In this document: positions 30,813 through 36,729 of the stretch, one piece after another
How the letters are laid out: each line of letters begins with the position of its first letter
Numbering within the stretch: position 1 is the stretch's first letter
Virus record (IMG/VR): IMGVR_UViG_3300035698_029839
Location: 233,711-297,710 of that record
DNA from: a virus
Strand: one strand, 5' to 3'
DNA: 64,000 nucleotides
Position numbers and translations under genes: made by a program
Notes under the pieces: generated by a model
Told to the model about the DNA's origin: nothing
Databases searched by the model: none
The model's input: the letters and a program-made list of their open reading frames with translations, nothing else

Positions 30813-30844
30813 TTCCAGACAAGTGGTTTTTTATTATTATAAGT
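30813..30844 (+). promoter_or_regulatory. CCAGACAA element upstream of the PARP gene
   Basis: Copy with TATAAGTTGTTAAT right half. Confidence 0.65.
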
Positions 30845-30872: not shown

Positions 30873-32207
30873 ATGCCAGTAGTAATAGAACATAAAAAAT
30901 TTAGTTGCACAAAGTTGGGTAGCAATAATAATAAGTTTTGGAACGTAACACTTTATGATAATGATGATGTTATGTCAGAATGGGGAAGACAGGGGAAAAC
31001 CTCACAATCTAAAACTTGGCCAGGTGTGGGTCGTTCTTTTATGGAAAAGAAGATAGAAGAAAAGAACAAAAAAGGGTATCATGAAAACCAAGTAGTCGAA
31101 GGGTCTGGGGAAGTTTCAATATCAGGACATAAAGTTGCTAACACTGAATTAAAAGATATAGCAGCTAAGCAAATAAAATCTAAAAATCCTATCGTAGCAA
31201 AATTAGTTAGTTTTTTAGTCGATGTAAACGCTCATGCTATACATAAAGCAACAGGCGGTAAAATTACATATGATACAAGCTCCGCTACGTTCAAAACTAC
31301 ACAAGGAGTAGTTATACCATCGCAAGTTACAAGGGCAAGAGATTTGTTATCTACTATGTACGATTATGTTAAAAATAACAAATTTGATATGATAGAGGAT
31401 AATTTGAACGAATACTTATCTTTGATTCCGAGAGATTTTGGTATGCACAAGATGAGTCCTTCTGATATTCTTCCAGATGTTGCAGCTGTTGGAGCAGAGA
31501 ATGATATTTTAGATGGTTTGGATTCTTCTTTTGCAGGATTACAAACGTCCACACCGAAAAAGAAAACGACGAAGAAAACAACAAAGAAAAAAGATACTCC
31601 ACAGATTTTTGATGTAGAAATGGGTATTGTTACAGATAAGAAAATCATATCTCATGTCAAACATCTTTATCAATCAACACGCAGAAGTATGCACCAGTCC
31701 AACAGTTTATCTGTACAAACAGTTTACTCTGTAACTATCAAGACAGTAAAAAATGCTTTTGATAGTCATGGAGCAAAGATGAAAAATATTTGGCAGTTGT
31801 GGCATGGTACAAAAGCAAGTAACCTTTTGTCTATTATGAGACAAGGTTTGATTATACCACCGTCAAGCTCTGGACATGTAACAGGTCGTATGTATTCAGA
31901 TGGTGTTTATTTTTCTGATATTAGTACTAAAGCATTAAATTATGCCACTAATTATTGGGGAGGTGGGGGTAGTACTGATAAAACATTTATGTTCTTAGCA
32001 GATGTTGCGATGGGAAAATATCATATAGCTAAAGATTCATGGACTAATTATCCTGTCTCTGGTTCAGATAGCACTTGGGCTAAAGGTAGAGACAAGGGAG
32101 GTGTTAATAGTGGCGTAATAAATGATGAAATGATAGTATATCGTACCGATCAGTGTAATTTGGTTTACCTTGTCGAATTTGTACCAAGGAATCAGCTTAG
32201 GAAATAA
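30873..32207 (+). CDS. Poly(ADP-ribose) polymerase-like protein (WGR, regulatory, ART domains)
   Basis: 444 residues with the core order of DNA-dependent PARPs. WGR domain about 1-75 (NKFWNVTLYD, SEWGRQGKTS, F...KNKKGY). Helical regulatory domain about 85-205 ending YLSLIPRDFG, equivalent to FYTLIPHDFG of PARP1. A Lys/Thr linker (about 220-250). Catalytic ART domain about 265-444: LWHGT (His), SDGVYFSD...ALNYA (Tyr), NDEMIVY (Glu), so the H-Y-E triad is complete, which in the family allows chain elongation. PARPs move ADP-ribose from NAD+ to proteins or DNA ends. The macrodomain gene at 35956 could reverse it. Confidence 0.93.
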   Translation: MPVVIEHKKFSCTKLGSNNNKFWNVTLYDNDDVMSEWGRQGKTSQSKTWPGVGRSFMEKKIEEKNKKGYHENQVVEGSGEVSISGHKVANTELKDIAAKQIKSKNPIVAKLVSFLVDVNAHAIHKATGGKITYDTSSATFKTTQGVVIPSQVTRARDLLSTMYDYVKNNKFDMIEDNLNEYLSLIPRDFGMHKMSPSDILPDVAAVGAENDILDGLDSSFAGLQTSTPKKKTTKKTTKKKDTPQIFDVEMGIVTDKKIISHVKHLYQSTRRSMHQSNSLSVQTVYSVTIKTVKNAFDSHGAKMKNIWQLWHGTKASNLLSIMRQGLIIPPSSSGHVTGRMYSDGVYFSDISTKALNYATNYWGGGGSTDKTFMFLADVAMGKYHIAKDSWTNYPVSGSDSTWAKGRDKGGVNSGVINDEMIVYRTDQCNLVYLVEFVPRNQLRK

Positions 32208-32208
32208 A

Positions 32209-32241
32209 TTCCAGACAAGTGTTTTTTGTTTTAGTAGAATG
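32209..32241 (+). promoter_or_regulatory. CCAGACAA element upstream of 32275
   Basis: Copy with a variant TAGAAT right half. Confidence 0.55.
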
Positions 32242-32274
32242 TAAATAATAATATTAATTTTTCGGCGAAATAGA

Positions 32275-32499
32275 ATGACATATACAGAAACTTACAAAAT
32301 AAAAGTAACAACTTATATAAGAATTAAGTATGATGATGGAGCAAGAGATGGAATTCTTATTGAGAATGAAAAGGATAGTGATTATGTGAAAGTGTTTTTT
32401 CCTGTAGAGATGACAATAGAAGTAATTACTAGAGATATGATTTATAAAGCAGGGAAAATGATGGAAATTAATTTTAATAATTCTGGTTTGTGGGAATAA
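32275..32499 (+). CDS. 74-aa beta-rich protein
   Basis: Alternating hydrophobic pattern (TYKIKVTTYIRIKYDDG..VKVFFPVEMTIEVI), a small beta protein. Unknown. A degenerate element copy (CCAGATGAA) follows its stop at about 32503. Confidence 0.7.
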   Translation: MTYTETYKIKVTTYIRIKYDDGARDGILIENEKDSDYVKVFFPVEMTIEVITRDMIYKAGKMMEINFNNSGLWE

Positions 32500-32569
32500 T
32501 AAAATCCAGATGAATAAAAATTAGTTTGTATGAAATGTTGAAGTAAATAATAATCTTTCGGAGAAAATC

Positions 32570-32788
32570 ATGAATGTGAGAAAAATAGAAATATATATAA
32601 ATCTTTGTGATAGTAGGCGTAGATTCCAAGTTGTAGATGATGATAGCTTTAGTAAGGACATTAAATGTGCCTATGATCTTACTAAAAATTGTTCTCCTGA
32701 ATGTGCAACATGTAGGATATGGGGATCTTCCAAGAAAGCGTCATGCGACAGGGTAGGAGAGGGTTTTGATATAGGCTCTCTTGAATAA
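32570..32788 (+). CDS. 72-aa Cys-rich protein
   Basis: Seven Cys, including CSPECATCR; likely metal-binding. TTCGGAG site. Unknown. Confidence 0.72.
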   Translation: MNVRKIEIYINLCDSRRRFQVVDDDSFSKDIKCAYDLTKNCSPECATCRIWGSSKKASCDRVGEGFDIGSLE

Positions 32789-32821
32789 TTCCAGACAAGT
32801 GGTTTTTCAATAGTATGGTAT
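32789..32821 (+). promoter_or_regulatory. CCAGACAA element upstream of 32868
   Basis: Copy directly after the stop codon. Confidence 0.6.
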
Positions 32822-32867
32822 AGTGAAGTATAAAAACTAATAATATTAAATAATGGAGAAACGAAAA

Positions 32868-33452
32868 ATGTGTACAGTATTAGCAGCAACATCAATTTTA
32901 GAAATTCTTCAAGAAGGAATGAAGAATGGAGAGGTTTTTACCTCTTTTGATATCACTGTTGGAGCAAGGGCCGTAGTCTCTGATAAGGTCTTTCACAGTG
33001 ATGTTAGACGTATCGTTAATGGAGAATTTGATAATGGCGAAATGGCTAGCTATAATAGAGAGCTTTGTTCTCTTAATATTCCTTCAAGCCCCCAAGCTTT
33101 TGTCTTTTTCCCTGATGGAAAATTGGCAACTGACCATCCTCTCGTATCAGACAGCACCGACCCTAATGATGGTACGGATGATGGTACGGATGGCACTGTA
33201 TCGGTTGTCCTCGATGATGATGAGTATAAGCTCACCAAAGATGGACGTGTCAACATTCCTAAGAAACTTTTCAGCCAGATCGTGCCTAGTGCGGGTAGTT
33301 ACGATGTGCTTGTGAACGGCAGTTTGAAAAGTGTTGCACCGAACAAAGACGGACGTGTAAGGCTCTGCCTTATACGAATCGGTATCAATGACAGCAAAGT
33401 TAAACTTTCAGTCGATACCACAAACAATACTATCAATCTTGAAACTATTTAA
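32868..33452 (+). CDS. Hypothetical two-part protein, 194 aa
   Basis: N-terminal helical half, an Asp/Gly-rich linker with DDGTDDGTDG repeats (about 95-108), and a beta-rich C-terminal half (KLTKDGRVNIPKKLF...VLVNGS) somewhat like AbrB/SpoVT-type swapped-hairpin DNA-binding domains, though this is weak. Start placed after GGAG; an upstream in-frame ATG at 32853 contains that site. Base composition is less AT-rich than its neighbours. Confidence 0.75.
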   Translation: MCTVLAATSILEILQEGMKNGEVFTSFDITVGARAVVSDKVFHSDVRRIVNGEFDNGEMASYNRELCSLNIPSSPQAFVFFPDGKLATDHPLVSDSTDPNDGTDDGTDGTVSVVLDDDEYKLTKDGRVNIPKKLFSQIVPSAGSYDVLVNGSLKSVAPNKDGRVRLCLIRIGINDSKVKLSVDTTNNTINLETI

Positions 33453-33476
33453 TAGTTTCGACTAATTCCTACTGAT

Positions 33477-33504
33477 AAGGGCAAGTTAATAGCTTGCCCT
33501 TATA
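33477..33504 (+). terminator. Intrinsic terminator
   Basis: GGGCAAG TTAATAG CTTGCCC stem; short T-rich tail. Confidence 0.6.
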
Positions 33505-33505
33505 A

Positions 33506-33540
33506 TTCCAGACAAGTGATTTTCTATTTTGGTATAGTGT
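33506..33540 (+). promoter_or_regulatory. CCAGACAA element upstream of 33569
   Basis: Copy after the terminator. Confidence 0.6.
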
Positions 33541-33568
33541 TAATGTTATTTTATATTGGAGAAATAAG

Positions 33569-34270
33569 ATGAATAGAAATATGTTATATGTAGAATATCC
33601 TTTGGCAAGGTCATTATTTGAAGCTATTGAGTGTCTGGAAAATGGAGGAAGTGTCTGGCAGGAAATATCAGATGATTTTCCTGATTGTGCAGGATTTGAT
33701 ACTTCCGAAGATTTAGCAGATAATTTTCCTGATGATGAAATTGAGGAGTATGATTTGATTCATCTTGTTCCTAAGGGGTTGGAATCAATTCCAGCAAGAC
33801 CTTTCGTAATAGAAGAAACGGTCTGGGCAACAGAAAGATTCTTCATTACAAATGATTTATATATGCACAAGGGAGACTCTTATAAGATAGTCGAAATTAG
33901 TGATGATGGTAAGAGTATCAAACTTGATGTTCCTAAAAATGAACAAAAGGACACGATGTGGCCTGCTGATAAATTTTGCAGATGTGTACTTCCTGTAGAT
34001 AAGAAAAAAGTCTATGCTCTGGCTGATATGACAAGTAGTAGTGTAGGATATGATTTGGACAATGTTTATGAAGATTTGAGTTTCCTCAAGGAAGAGTGTG
34101 ATGGAGATACTGTTTGGTCTGATAGTTATCAAAATGAAGATGAATTCATAGATTATATGAAATCATTGGGACATAGTGTATCAGGAATAAATTGGGATAT
34201 TGTAGGATATGGTAGAGAAACAGGAGAATTAGTCTATGCGATTCAGCAATGTTTCTTGAGAACAAGATAA
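33569..34270 (+). CDS. Hypothetical acidic protein, 233 aa
   Basis: Asp/Glu-rich with two possibly repeated halves (DNDLYMHKGDSYKIVEISDDGKSIKL is SH3-like). Not recognised. Confidence 0.82.
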   Translation: MNRNMLYVEYPLARSLFEAIECLENGGSVWQEISDDFPDCAGFDTSEDLADNFPDDEIEEYDLIHLVPKGLESIPARPFVIEETVWATERFFITNDLYMHKGDSYKIVEISDDGKSIKLDVPKNEQKDTMWPADKFCRCVLPVDKKKVYALADMTSSSVGYDLDNVYEDLSFLKEECDGDTVWSDSYQNEDEFIDYMKSLGHSVSGINWDIVGYGRETGELVYAIQQCFLRTR

Positions 34271-34296
34271 TTTTTATTGATTTTATTTCTCCAACA

Positions 34297-34326
34297 TGAG
34301 GAGCGTGGTTGATTCCATGCTCCTCA
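34297..34326 (+). terminator. Terminator-like hairpin
   Basis: TGAGGAGCGTGG/CCATGCTCCTCA, 12-bp stem; no long T-run. Confidence 0.5.
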
Positions 34327-34332
34327 CTCCAT

Positions 34333-34365
34333 TTCCAGACAAGTGGTTTTTTATATTGGTAGATT
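34333..34365 (+). promoter_or_regulatory. CCAGACAA element, start codon adjacent
   Basis: TAGATT runs straight into ATG at 34366. Confidence 0.6.
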
Positions 34366-34587
34366 ATGATAAAAGAAATAAAAAAACTTAGAGAGCAAAC
34401 AAATAAAGCAGAAGTTGCTTTGTATCAGGCAGTTATGGATTTAGGCAATCATATGAATAAGTGCAATTGTGATGATTTGCATTTTTCGAGTTCAGTTAGA
34501 TATGATTTTGTTAATACTATTTCTCATCATGAGGTTCATACATTTTGTCTTAATTGTGGTGGATTTATTACTTTAACGGAGATATAA
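34366..34587 (+). CDS. 73-aa Cys-rich protein
   Basis: Helical N-terminus, CNCDDLHF and CLNCGG near the end, a possible zinc site. No leader or ribosome site. Confidence 0.7.
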   Translation: MIKEIKKLREQTNKAEVALYQAVMDLGNHMNKCNCDDLHFSSSVRYDFVNTISHHEVHTFCLNCGGFITLTEI

Positions 34588-34589
34588 AA

Positions 34590-35162
34590 ATGCCAGTAAA
34601 AGAAAATCCTACAAGAGATGTCAAATGCAGATGTGGTAAAACAACTACTGTTAATATTGAGCCTGCAATAGCATATTGCAAAACTACAAGATTTGTTTGT
34701 GAGTGTAAGAAAGTGGTTCATATTACAGATTATTGCAATGGCTGTATCACTTATATGTTTCCCTCTAAAGAGGTAGATGAAGCTTTTCTCAAAATGAGGG
34801 AAGAAGATGAGGAAAGAAAGAATAAAGATAGGAAGAGATGTACGGGTCGTATAGCAGATTTTTACACTTTTATAGATGAAATACCTGTTGGTACAAGACT
34901 TTCTACTATTGAAGATTGTAAAAAGTGCGATGGAATGAAAGGTTGTGGAGTATCACAGCATTGTTTAATAACAGAAAAACAGATACAAAGAAAATGTTTT
35001 AATCATTGTCCTAGATGTGATGCTGGTGAAAATGATATTGAGTGGGGAGAAAAAGATTGGTCTGATGAATCAGCTTGGCAAGACGCTGTTTGTAAGAAAT
35101 GTGGGTGTATGTTTTCAGAAGTATATATTTATAGTTGTTCAGAAATTGATGCACCGATATAG
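34590..35162 (+). CDS. Multi-zinc-ribbon protein, 190 aa
   Basis: At least five Cys pairs (CRCG, CECKK, CKKCDGMKGCG, CPRC, CKKCGC). ATG chosen after ACGGAGAT. Possibly nucleic-acid or metal binding. Unknown. Confidence 0.78.
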   Translation: MPVKENPTRDVKCRCGKTTTVNIEPAIAYCKTTRFVCECKKVVHITDYCNGCITYMFPSKEVDEAFLKMREEDEERKNKDRKRCTGRIADFYTFIDEIPVGTRLSTIEDCKKCDGMKGCGVSQHCLITEKQIQRKCFNHCPRCDAGENDIEWGEKDWSDESAWQDAVCKKCGCMFSEVYIYSCSEIDAPI

Positions 35163-35177
35163 TTTCCTAATGGATAA

Positions 35178-35210
35178 TTCCAGACAAGTGATTTTTTGTT
35201 ATTATAGGTT
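35178..35210 (+). promoter_or_regulatory. CCAGACAA element upstream of a tRNA-like RNA
   Basis: Full right half TATAGGTTGTTAAT; the first feature downstream is the RNA at 35222, not a gene. Confidence 0.6.
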
Positions 35211-35221
35211 GTTAATAAGAA

Positions 35222-35338
35222 AAAAGAATAAGGTTGTAGTTCAACTGTCAGAATGATGGACTAGGCTCTGTTGAGAAGTCGCAATTTTCTATCCTAGTTA
35301 CAAGATGTGGAATCGAGACCACCAATTCTTATTCTTTT
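35222..35338 (+). ncRNA. Solitary tRNA-like RNA with expanded anticodon arm
   Basis: Perfect 11-bp closing stem AAAAGAATAAG/CTTATTCTTTT. D-arm-like GTTGTAGTTCAACTG, T-arm GTGG-AATCGAGA-CCAC, and ACTAGG/CCTAGT stem enclosing 27 nt where a 7-nt anticodon loop would sit. Lies 11 kb from the tRNA island with its own element. Confidence 0.5.
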
Positions 35339-35362
35339 ACTAATTTATTTTTTGGAGAAAAA

Positions 35363-35677
35363 ATGAGTAATTTAGCTTATATACAAACAGTTGAAGTAAA
35401 GAAAACCTATGCAGAAGAAATAGTTATAGATGTAAGAGTCTGGGATAATTTTACTGAGGGAGACTCTTATATAGGAGAAAAGGGACAAGTAGGAGATAGG
35501 GGAGTTGATGTAAAAGATGATATGTCTATTCTCCAGTATTGTAAAGATATTGGTTCTGATGATAGTGCTAGTATTTGTAGTGTAATAGATAGTATTCTCG
35601 AAAATAAAAAGGGTGTAGAAATCAATGGCACTTTTTATGAGTGGGACGAAATAAAACATATATTTCCAGACAACTGA
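35363..35677 (+). CDS. Hypothetical protein, 104 aa
   Basis: Acidic, mixed structure. TTTTTGGAG site. The last residues FPDN and stop are encoded by the next element. Confidence 0.75.
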   Translation: MSNLAYIQTVEVKKTYAEEIVIDVRVWDNFTEGDSYIGEKGQVGDRGVDVKDDMSILQYCKDIGSDDSASICSVIDSILENKKGVEINGTFYEWDEIKHIFPDN

Positions 35678-35696
35678 TTTTTTAATAGGGTAGAAT
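35664..35696 (+). promoter_or_regulatory. CCAGACAA element, start codon adjacent
   Basis: TAGAAT joins ATG at 35697. Confidence 0.6.
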
Positions 35697-35945
35697 ATGG
35701 ATGATAAAATTCTAAAAAATTTAATAGCTATCATAGAGAATTTTGATTTTCAGGTTATGTGGAATGCTGATTTTGGAAAATATTGTGTTCTTCGTCATAT
35801 AGTCCATTATATTGATGGTGAAGCAATGGTTAATTTTAGAGATTTTAGAGCAAAACATATAGACTTATATAATTGTTCTATGGATGATTTTATATTTTTT
35901 CGGAAATCACAAATGACAGAAATATTAAAACATATAAAAAAGTGA
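35697..35945 (+). CDS. 82-aa protein
   Basis: Leaderless arrangement. Helical with aromatic residues. Precedes the macrodomain gene by 10 nt and is probably co-transcribed with it. Confidence 0.7.
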   Translation: MDDKILKNLIAIIENFDFQVMWNADFGKYCVLRHIVHYIDGEAMVNFRDFRAKHIDLYNCSMDDFIFFRKSQMTEILKHIKK

Positions 35946-35955
35946 GGGTATTAAA

Positions 35956-36729
35956 ATGACTAATGGAACATTAAAAACAGTAGTAGGCGATGTTACTAAT
36001 CCTCAAAGACTGACACCGAATGAGGTAGTAATTATACCTCATTGTTGTAATAATAAAGGTGTGATTGGTGCAGGAGTAGCTTTAGCACTTAAAAAGAAAT
36101 GGCCAGAAGTAGAAAAAGAGTATATGTCTGGTTCTTTAGAGCTTGGTTCTGTTTCTTGTGCTGTATTAGATGATGGAGTAGTTGGCCCGAATCAGGAAAA
36201 TCCTAAAGTAACAACTGTCATTTATAATATGATAGGTCAAGATGGAACTGTTTCTACTATTAATTCTAAACCTGTTAAGTATTGGGCTTTAGTAAAGGCA
36301 ATGAAAATTATTGAGGGAAGATGTGAAAATATAAGAAATTGGAATTGGTTTCCTGGATGGAGTCCTAATCCTGTTATCCATTGTCCTAAATTTGGTTCTG
36401 ATCTCGCTGGTGGCAATTTCGATTTCATATTAGAGTTAATAAGAGAAATATGGATAGAGAATGGTATAGATGTAGTCGTGTATGAGTTTGTACCTAAAAT
36501 AAATGGAGAAAAAATGAGTAAACAAATTTGTAAAGTATTAATTAGGAATTTACATGGAGATCCACAAGTTATTGGATGGATCAATGAATCTGAGGTTGCC
36601 CCGATGTTAAGGCTTAATCAGCAATATAAGATTAAGGGGAAGCCGATGTTTATGGTTCAAGCTATTCCTTATCTCGATATTACTGATGCTGTTCAAATAG
36701 TTTTATCATCTGATGAGTTTGACAAGTAA
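35956..36729 (+). CDS. Macrodomain (ADP-ribose-binding/hydrolase) protein
   Basis: 257 residues. Residues about 5-180 form a macrodomain: VVGDVTNP, VVIIPHCCNNKGVIGAGVALALKKKWPEV (the adenosine and phosphate loops), YNMIGQ, and VIHCPKFGSDLAGGNFDFILELI matching the PxIGCGLaGGdW loop of Poa1p-like enzymes. Family members bind ADP-ribose and many remove it from proteins, nucleic acids or its 1''-phosphate. Residues 187-257 follow an internal GGAGAAAAAATG, so a 71-residue C-terminal protein may be made separately. The PARP at 30873 is the likely source of substrate in the same genome. Confidence 0.88.
   Translation: MTNGTLKTVVGDVTNPQRLTPNEVVIIPHCCNNKGVIGAGVALALKKKWPEVEKEYMSGSLELGSVSCAVLDDGVVGPNQENPKVTTVIYNMIGQDGTVSTINSKPVKYWALVKAMKIIEGRCENIRNWNWFPGWSPNPVIHCPKFGSDLAGGNFDFILELIREIWIENGIDVVVYEFVPKINGEKMSKQICKVLIRNLHGDPQVIGWINESEVAPMLRLNQQYKIKGKPMFMVQAIPYLDITDAVQIVLSSDEFDK

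Follow-up and report, generated by a model that had tools for sequence, protein, structure and literature searches.

Most of what is known of PARP signalling comes from eukaryotes: breaks in DNA set off ADP-ribosylation, and hydrolases reverse it. In bacteria, the layout of PARPs has been described (PMC5966428). Phage PARPs were earlier reported in Aeh1 and phi4:1 (PMC4245714), and PARP-type ADP-ribosyltransferases (ARTs) rank with the most frequent families of viral ARTs (PMC9503650). The writer/eraser pairs of phages that are known or predicted are sirtuin-macrodomain and ART-ARG pairs, the sirtuin-macrodomain pairing in Streptomyces phages being predicted as writer/eraser (PMC9503650). Here we describe a stretch of 64,000 nucleotides (the window), bases 233711-297710 of the 297.7 kb virus record IMGVR_UViG_3300035698_029839, which is of the jumbo tailed-phage type. 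The window encodes a PARP and, 3.7 kb downstream, a macrodomain protein, a candidate writer and a candidate eraser of ADP-ribose.

Since unrelated phages carry similar pairs above chance, this phage may have a system of its own for tagging chemically and reversibly in the cell; that PARP and macrodomain share a target is a proposal. The parts, phage PARPs and phage macrodomains, are already known. For the recurrent pairing, no description of PARP-macrodomain neighbourhoods was found in the open-access papers searched, including the available portions of PMC4245714 and PMC9503650.

The PARP and macrodomain genes of the window

The features of the locus are as follows.

30813..30831, + strand: promoter-like element TTCCAGACAAGTGGTTTTT, exact match, about 40 bp ahead of the PARP start
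30873..32207, + strand: PARP with WGR domain, putative helical regulatory region and ADP-ribosyltransferase domain (Pfam, PHROG 23333, PDB matches to PARP1/2/3, alignment of phage PARPs)
32209..35954, + strand: intervening stretch with about eight small open reading frames (ORFs) and six copies of the element (ORF list, element positions)
35664..35682, + strand: promoter-like element of the macrodomain's unit, exact match, ahead of the 82-amino-acid ORF directly upstream of the macrodomain
35697..35945, + strand: 82-amino-acid ORF, which opens the macrodomain's unit and lies 10 bp before the macrodomain (ORF list)
35956..36513, + strand: macrodomain of the SCO6735/ALC1 class, residues 1-186 (PHROG 335, PDB 5E3B/2AFC, model and fold match, residue mapping)
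36514..36729, + strand: C-terminal extension of the macrodomain protein, 71 residues; its first codon is an internal ATG preceded by GGAG

The PARP gene encodes 444 amino acids. Pfam detected the PARP catalytic domain (E=1.9e-25, 90 bits against a cut-off of 26.7) and the WGR domain (E=1.7e-6, 28.5 bits against a cut-off of 22). PARP_reg stayed under its Pfam cut-off of 26.8 (E=1.1e-4, 22.8 bits); the alignment to PARP1/2 spans the helical region. PDB matches provided a sequence alignment with the structures of PARP1, PARP2 and PARP3. The H-Y-E triad is complete (H311, Y346, E419), and all three residues are invariant in an alignment of 10 phage PARPs. Judged from its sequence, the product of 30873-32207 is a WGR-PARP with a complete catalytic triad.

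The full macrodomain ORF (35956-36729, + strand) encodes 257 amino acids. When the phage's own record was searched, the Pfam Macro model did not match this product. We ascribe the missing match to the subclass of the protein, as PHROG 335, which carries the label "phosphatase", does detect it (E=6e-24). PDB sequence matches were 5E3B (SCO6735; E=1.7e-10) and 2AFC/2FG1 (BT_1257; E=2e-9 to 4e-9). A first, alignment-free fold had a pLDDT of 32 and was discarded. An AlphaFold model built with 11 aligned sequences was confident for about residues 1-180. Structural matches of this model were 2FG1 (Z 21.8), 5E3B (Z 18.5), TARG1 (17.4), ALC1 (16.8), DarG (16.1) and Poa1p (14.7), with an rmsd to 5E3B and 2FG1 of 1.6-1.8 across 138-151 residues. 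By sequence and by model, the protein is a macrodomain of the SCO6735/BT_1257 (ALC1/TARG1) class. The names given to both proteins in a preliminary description of this DNA hold, and the spacing of 3.7 kb given there is confirmed, with 3748 bp between the PARP stop and the macrodomain start.

Assignments to neighbouring classes were also checked. The NCBIfam model for DarG reached 22 bits against a cut-off of 250, covering only macrodomain residues 31-58, and the neighbouring writer is a PARP. The Lys84/Asp125 dyad of TARG1 is absent, Lys84 (equivalent to SCO6735 Gln85) being Q95 and Asp125 being A151 in the motif as read by eye. The "phosphatase" label, the match to yeast Poa1p and the 33 tRNA genes that the phage carries in the window would suit an ADP-ribose-1''-phosphate phosphatase of an RNA-repair pathway, unrelated to the PARP. 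SCO6735-type proteins are, however, clearly nearer in structure than Poa1p, and KptA/Tpt1, the usual source of ADP-ribose-1''-phosphate, was found neither in this phage nor in its two relatives. Because KptA was not found, the RNA-repair explanation was dropped, and we regard it as highly improbable.

The 71-residue extension is missing in both related phages, whose macrodomain proteins stop at the domain boundary. No homologue of it was found in the own or the related loci, and AlphaFold gave a pLDDT below 50 for residues 215-257. The extension is probably a small gene that was joined in frame to the macrodomain. The 82-amino-acid ORF ahead of the macrodomain likewise had no match in the related loci.

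Both genes lie behind copies of one promoter-like element, TTCCAGACAANTGNTTTTT (also written TTCCAGACAA), of which the window holds 45 copies with at most two mismatches against 0.04 expected. About 6 bases past its extended form, TTCCAGACAAgTGgTTTTtT, comes a -10-like TATAGGTTGTTAAT stretch at near-constant spacing. Of the ten-base core, the window has 47 copies on its + strand, against only about 7 in the remaining 235 kb of the record. Copies span 8491-50249 of the window (+ strand), most of them between 24 and 50 kb, and variants are present in two related jumbo phages. The element reads as the putative promoter of one gene set in the stretch of about 8.5-50 kb. The placing of both genes behind the same element class stood up, with copies at 30813 and 35664, although about 40 other units share the element. 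Six copies lie between PARP and macrodomain (32209, 32789, 33506, 34333, 35178 and 35664). Because these six elements and the 3748 bp separate the genes, they do not form one operon. The layout of a toxin-antitoxin operon, with directly adjacent, co-transcribed genes, was likewise not found. The two genes look co-regulated but separately promoted, judging from their predicted promoters, and expression of both probably falls in one phase. The suggestion that ADP-ribose is set and removed at different times gains nothing from this arrangement, as both genes belong to one promoter set, and is unsupported.

Recurrence of the pair in other phages

In G001 (350.9 kb) and G043 (547.9 kb), the two phages nearest to this one, both genes are present in the same order, with a gap of 3.3 kb and 3.5 kb, respectively. 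The PARPs of G001 and G043 are 67% and 56% identical to that of the window, and the macrodomains 49% and 59%. RecA-like and TROVE genes are found at similar distances in all three genomes. The genomes are therefore collinear, and their linkage is one datum. In both relatives a large ORF resembling a homing endonuclease, identified by eye, lies directly 3' of the PARP (L117:4703-6106 and L001:6794-7600); it is absent in the window phage.

A single-sequence PARP scan of viral contigs returned nothing, and an alignment-based scan returned 55 PARP loci. In order to analyze proximity, 50 PARP records were searched whole with PHROG 335 and Pfam Macro, and distances were compared with uniform placement. 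After related records had been dropped, a macrodomain lay within 5.5 kb of the PARP in 7 of 28 phages (1.87 expected, P ~0.002). With the window phage left out as well, 6 of the 27 PARP phages with a macrodomain had one within this distance (1.83 expected, P ~0.008). The near pairs were found in G005, G017, G030, G039, the Klebsiella phages 05F01 and FBKp34 (one lineage) and Pseudomonas phage pf16. The nearby macrodomains are MacroD-like in G005 and G017 and match PHROG 335 in W01, W04, W07, G030 and G039. These different subclasses near PARPs suggest that PARP-macrodomain pairs were assembled repeatedly. Whether accessory genes cluster in general was checked with the NADAR and ARH genes of the same phages, none of which lay within 5.5 kb of the PARP (0/11 and 0/4, respectively). 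Of the 25 PARP records that reach 180 kb or more, 22 had a macrodomain, compared to 7 of 13 well-known jumbo phages (Fisher P ~0.03). The latter share agrees with the 56% of jumbo phages given in PMC9503650.

We noticed small proteins encoded directly after the PARP at L054:11721-12119 and L057:11841-12314, which contain GSNxAGxHGAGAA and GCGLAGY and perhaps represent a very divergent macrodomain-like family. They were not counted as macrodomains, as their match to the macrodomain profile was only E ~0.002-0.003 and no Pfam family was assigned.

In bacteria, 12 WGR-PARP loci were found. In Rathayibacter iranicus a few dozen bases separate the WGR-PARP from a TARG1/DarG-like (ALC1-like) macrodomain that follows it; Leifsonia sp. 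Leaf264 has a macrodomain about 3 kb downstream of its WGR-PARP. A scan of bacterial genomes for the window's own macrodomain gave no confirmed case. Of the cultured phages, Streptomyces phage Annadreamy encodes its closest relative, gp152 (34%); the gene for gp152 and a Sir2 gene overlap (gp151-gp152). Co-occurrence elsewhere, which the preliminary description had set in advance as a check of the pairing, was positive in unrelated phages and in two actinobacterial PARP loci.

Active site and possible roles of the macrodomain

The active site was mapped by sequence alignment to SCO6735, using its published numbering (PMC9411070). SCO6735 residues H24, N27, Q85 and G87 are conserved as H29, N32, Q95 and G97, and K34, K89, K93 and G128 are replaced by A39, V99, N103 and D149. 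The long mobile loop of SCO6735 aligns without gaps and is of equal length. The loop motif PKFGSDLAGGNF is found at residues 144-155. The loop had been called an intact AGG-type loop. Indeed, AGG is kept, but the PB-loop glycine two residues upstream of it (SCO6735 Gly128) is Asp149 and Lys34 is Ala39. At the positions of Lys34, Lys89 and Gly128 the relatives read K/V/D (G043) and K/V/E (G001), and AGG reads AKG in G043. Loss of Lys34 is frequent among the compared phage macrodomains and is therefore no special mark of this one. Asp or Glu at the PB-loop was found in five compared macrodomains, all from PARP phages, but we do not claim it as a mark of PARP-linked macrodomains, as the comparison set consisted mostly of PARP phages.

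In SCO6735, Q85 and N27 are the key residues of hydrolysis, and Q85A abolished activity on DNA and protein (PMC9411070). K34E almost removed DNA activity and hardly affected protein activity, G128E caused a substantial drop in the removal of ADP-ribose from DNA, and most mutants lost about half of their protein activity (PMC9411070). SCO6735 and TARG1 take off Asp/Glu-linked ADP-ribose (PMC9411070), and uracil-linked ADP-ribose of RNA is a further reported substrate of SCO6735 (PMC13036486). As the phage protein has lost the lysines that place DNA and has Asp at the Gly128 position, its substrate would be protein-linked rather than thymidine-linked. These replacements argue against a DNA-specialised antitoxin and are compatible with a protein-directed hydrolase. 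The loss of Lys34, Lys89 and Gly128 would lower any claim to a DNA activity like that of SCO6735, not the class membership.

Alternatively, the macrodomain could be a reader that, like ALC1, binds ADP-ribose marks or the modified PARP without removing them, with the fused C-terminal segment as effector. In the structural comparison ALC1 came close to the model, hydrolysis could be crippled by Asp in place of the PB-loop glycine together with the loss of Lys34, and the added segment is present. On the other hand, the hydrolysis residues Gln95 and Asn32 are retained in the macrodomains of all three related phages, and neither relative has the segment. We consider a pure reader improbable.

PARP1/2 modify Asp/Glu in the absence of the eukaryotic factor HPF1 and Ser in its presence. 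If the phage PARP acts without HPF1, the linkage that it makes would suit removal by a macrodomain of the SCO6735/TARG1 class. In the reaction cycle that we propose, the PARP would be switched on by DNA ends through its WGR domain and putative helical region, as PARP1/2/3 are, and would attach ADP-ribose to Asp/Glu residues of proteins from host or phage, among them the PARP itself. The macrodomain would strip this protein-linked ADP-ribose, so that modification is transient and self-modification limited. PARG_cat_microb of Pfam, the bacterial-type PARG model and the only one searched (not the canonical one), matched neither the macrodomain nor any other part of the record, and a PARG reading was dropped. 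Since no bacterial-type PARG was detected, the system would be suited to mono- or short modification and not to long polymers. We tentatively favour a macrodomain that erases the Asp/Glu-linked ADP-ribose which the phage's own PARP attaches over a free-standing hydrolase directed against host defence, while holding it somewhat short of probable.

This reserve is due to the number of hydrolases in the phage. Two further ones are encoded outside the window in the phage genome (G000).

G000 64111-64542: NADAR protein (E=5e-50)
G000 201824-202516: ADP-ribosylglycohydrolase (E=2e-34), with TDDT and GGDTDT metal motifs intact

Three ADP-ribosyl-hydrolase families (macrodomain, NADAR and ADP-ribosylglycohydrolase) therefore stand against the one writer identified by a search that left aside sirtuins and other ARTs. 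This is the strongest point for a free-standing counter-defence enzyme, which would act on host ADP-ribose placed by DarT-like DNA toxins or mRNA ADP-ribosyltransferases, or destroy ADP-ribose-derived signals, and would lie near the PARP through clustering of accessory genes. SCO6735 works best on thymidine ADP-ribose of the DarT type and inhibits DarT (PMC9411070). Macrodomains also occur in about half of jumbo phages, for which a role against soluble ADP-ribose derivatives has been argued. Against such an enzyme, Lys34 and Lys89, which place DNA in SCO6735, are Ala39 and Val99, and Asp149 stands at the position where G128E cut the removal of ADP-ribose from DNA. Moreover, macrodomains lie near PARPs more often than under random placement, and NADAR and ARH genes do not. 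We regard a counter-defence enzyme as a possible but somewhat doubtful explanation.

Besides the surplus of erasers, several observations weigh against a PARP-macrodomain pair. The genes lack an operon, with 3.7 kb and six promoter-like elements between them. Given its Asp149 and Ala39, the macrodomain could be a weak enzyme or do no more than bind ADP-ribose. Owing to their collinearity the three closest genomes count once, the macrodomain is distant from the PARP in most PARP phages, and seven phage records carry relatives of the window's macrodomain without a PARP. The null of the proximity test places genes uniformly, whereas accessory genes cluster, and the contrast between macrodomains and NADAR/ARH reached only P ~0.08. 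The 13 jumbo phages, of which 7 have a macrodomain, were chosen regardless of PARP, by accession, and form a small, hand-picked control; control sets based on RecA, TROVE and NrdD gave too few records. Taken together, a writer/eraser pair is plausible and gains support from the recurrence, although it is unproven.

Further genes of the phage were noted. It encodes a Ro60-like TROVE and vWA protein (L136:15013-16740; G000 ~195.0-196.7 kb), conserved in the two related jumbo phages, a queuosine salvage protein homologue (L136:10415-11380) and a PAS-histidine kinase (L134:15555-16688). Inteins are present in its DNA polymerase III alpha-type protein and its UvrD-like helicase (L128:15838-17685 and L129:6821-9805).

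Comparison with known systems

A phage with a WGR-PARP, a suitable eraser, NADAR and an ADP-ribosylglycohydrolase would offer a compact system in which to study PARP targets, triggering by DNA ends and the need for reversal. As PARPs and macrodomains of several subclasses are statistically linked, the hypothesis can be tested in cultured phages, for example the Klebsiella phages 05F01 and vB_KpM_FBKp34. The broader claim, that large phages have repeatedly assembled a reversible, DNA-damage-triggered circuit of protein ADP-ribosylation from a WGR-PARP and macrodomain erasers of different subclasses, appears rather unlikely to us at present.

SCO6735 of Streptomyces coelicolor (5E3B) and BT_1257 (2FG1/2AFC) share with the phage macrodomain the fold, the core residues H24/N27/Q85/G87 and the length of the mobile loop. 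The phage protein differs in lacking Lys34, Lys89, Lys93 and Gly128, in its extra C-terminal segment and in the position of its gene near a PARP. The phage PARP has a WGR domain, a putative helical region and an ADP-ribosyltransferase domain in the same order and the same H-Y-E triad as PARP2/PARP3, Herpetosiphon HaPARP and the C. difficile CD160 PARP. Unlike these, it is phage-borne, and its PARP_reg is under the Pfam cut-off; the studied bacterial PARPs coexist with PARG, of which the bacterial type was not found in the phage. The PARPs of Aeh1 and phi4:1 (PMC4245714) and the PART family (PMC9503650) are likewise phage-encoded PARP-type enzymes.

In DarT-DarG, too, an ADP-ribosyltransferase is partnered by an ALC1-class macrodomain. 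The pair of the window differs in that it has no DarT, is not adjacent, lacks the C-terminal half of DarG and has Gln in place of the catalytic Lys. The sirtuin-macrodomain modules of Streptomyces phages (PMC9503650; Annadreamy gp151-gp152) likewise place an SCO6735-like macrodomain beside an NAD-dependent writer, but here the writer is a PARP and the genes are 3.7 kb apart, not overlapping. In its logic, the proposed phage circuit would resemble the PARP/TARG1 damage response of eukaryotes, except that it would serve infection.

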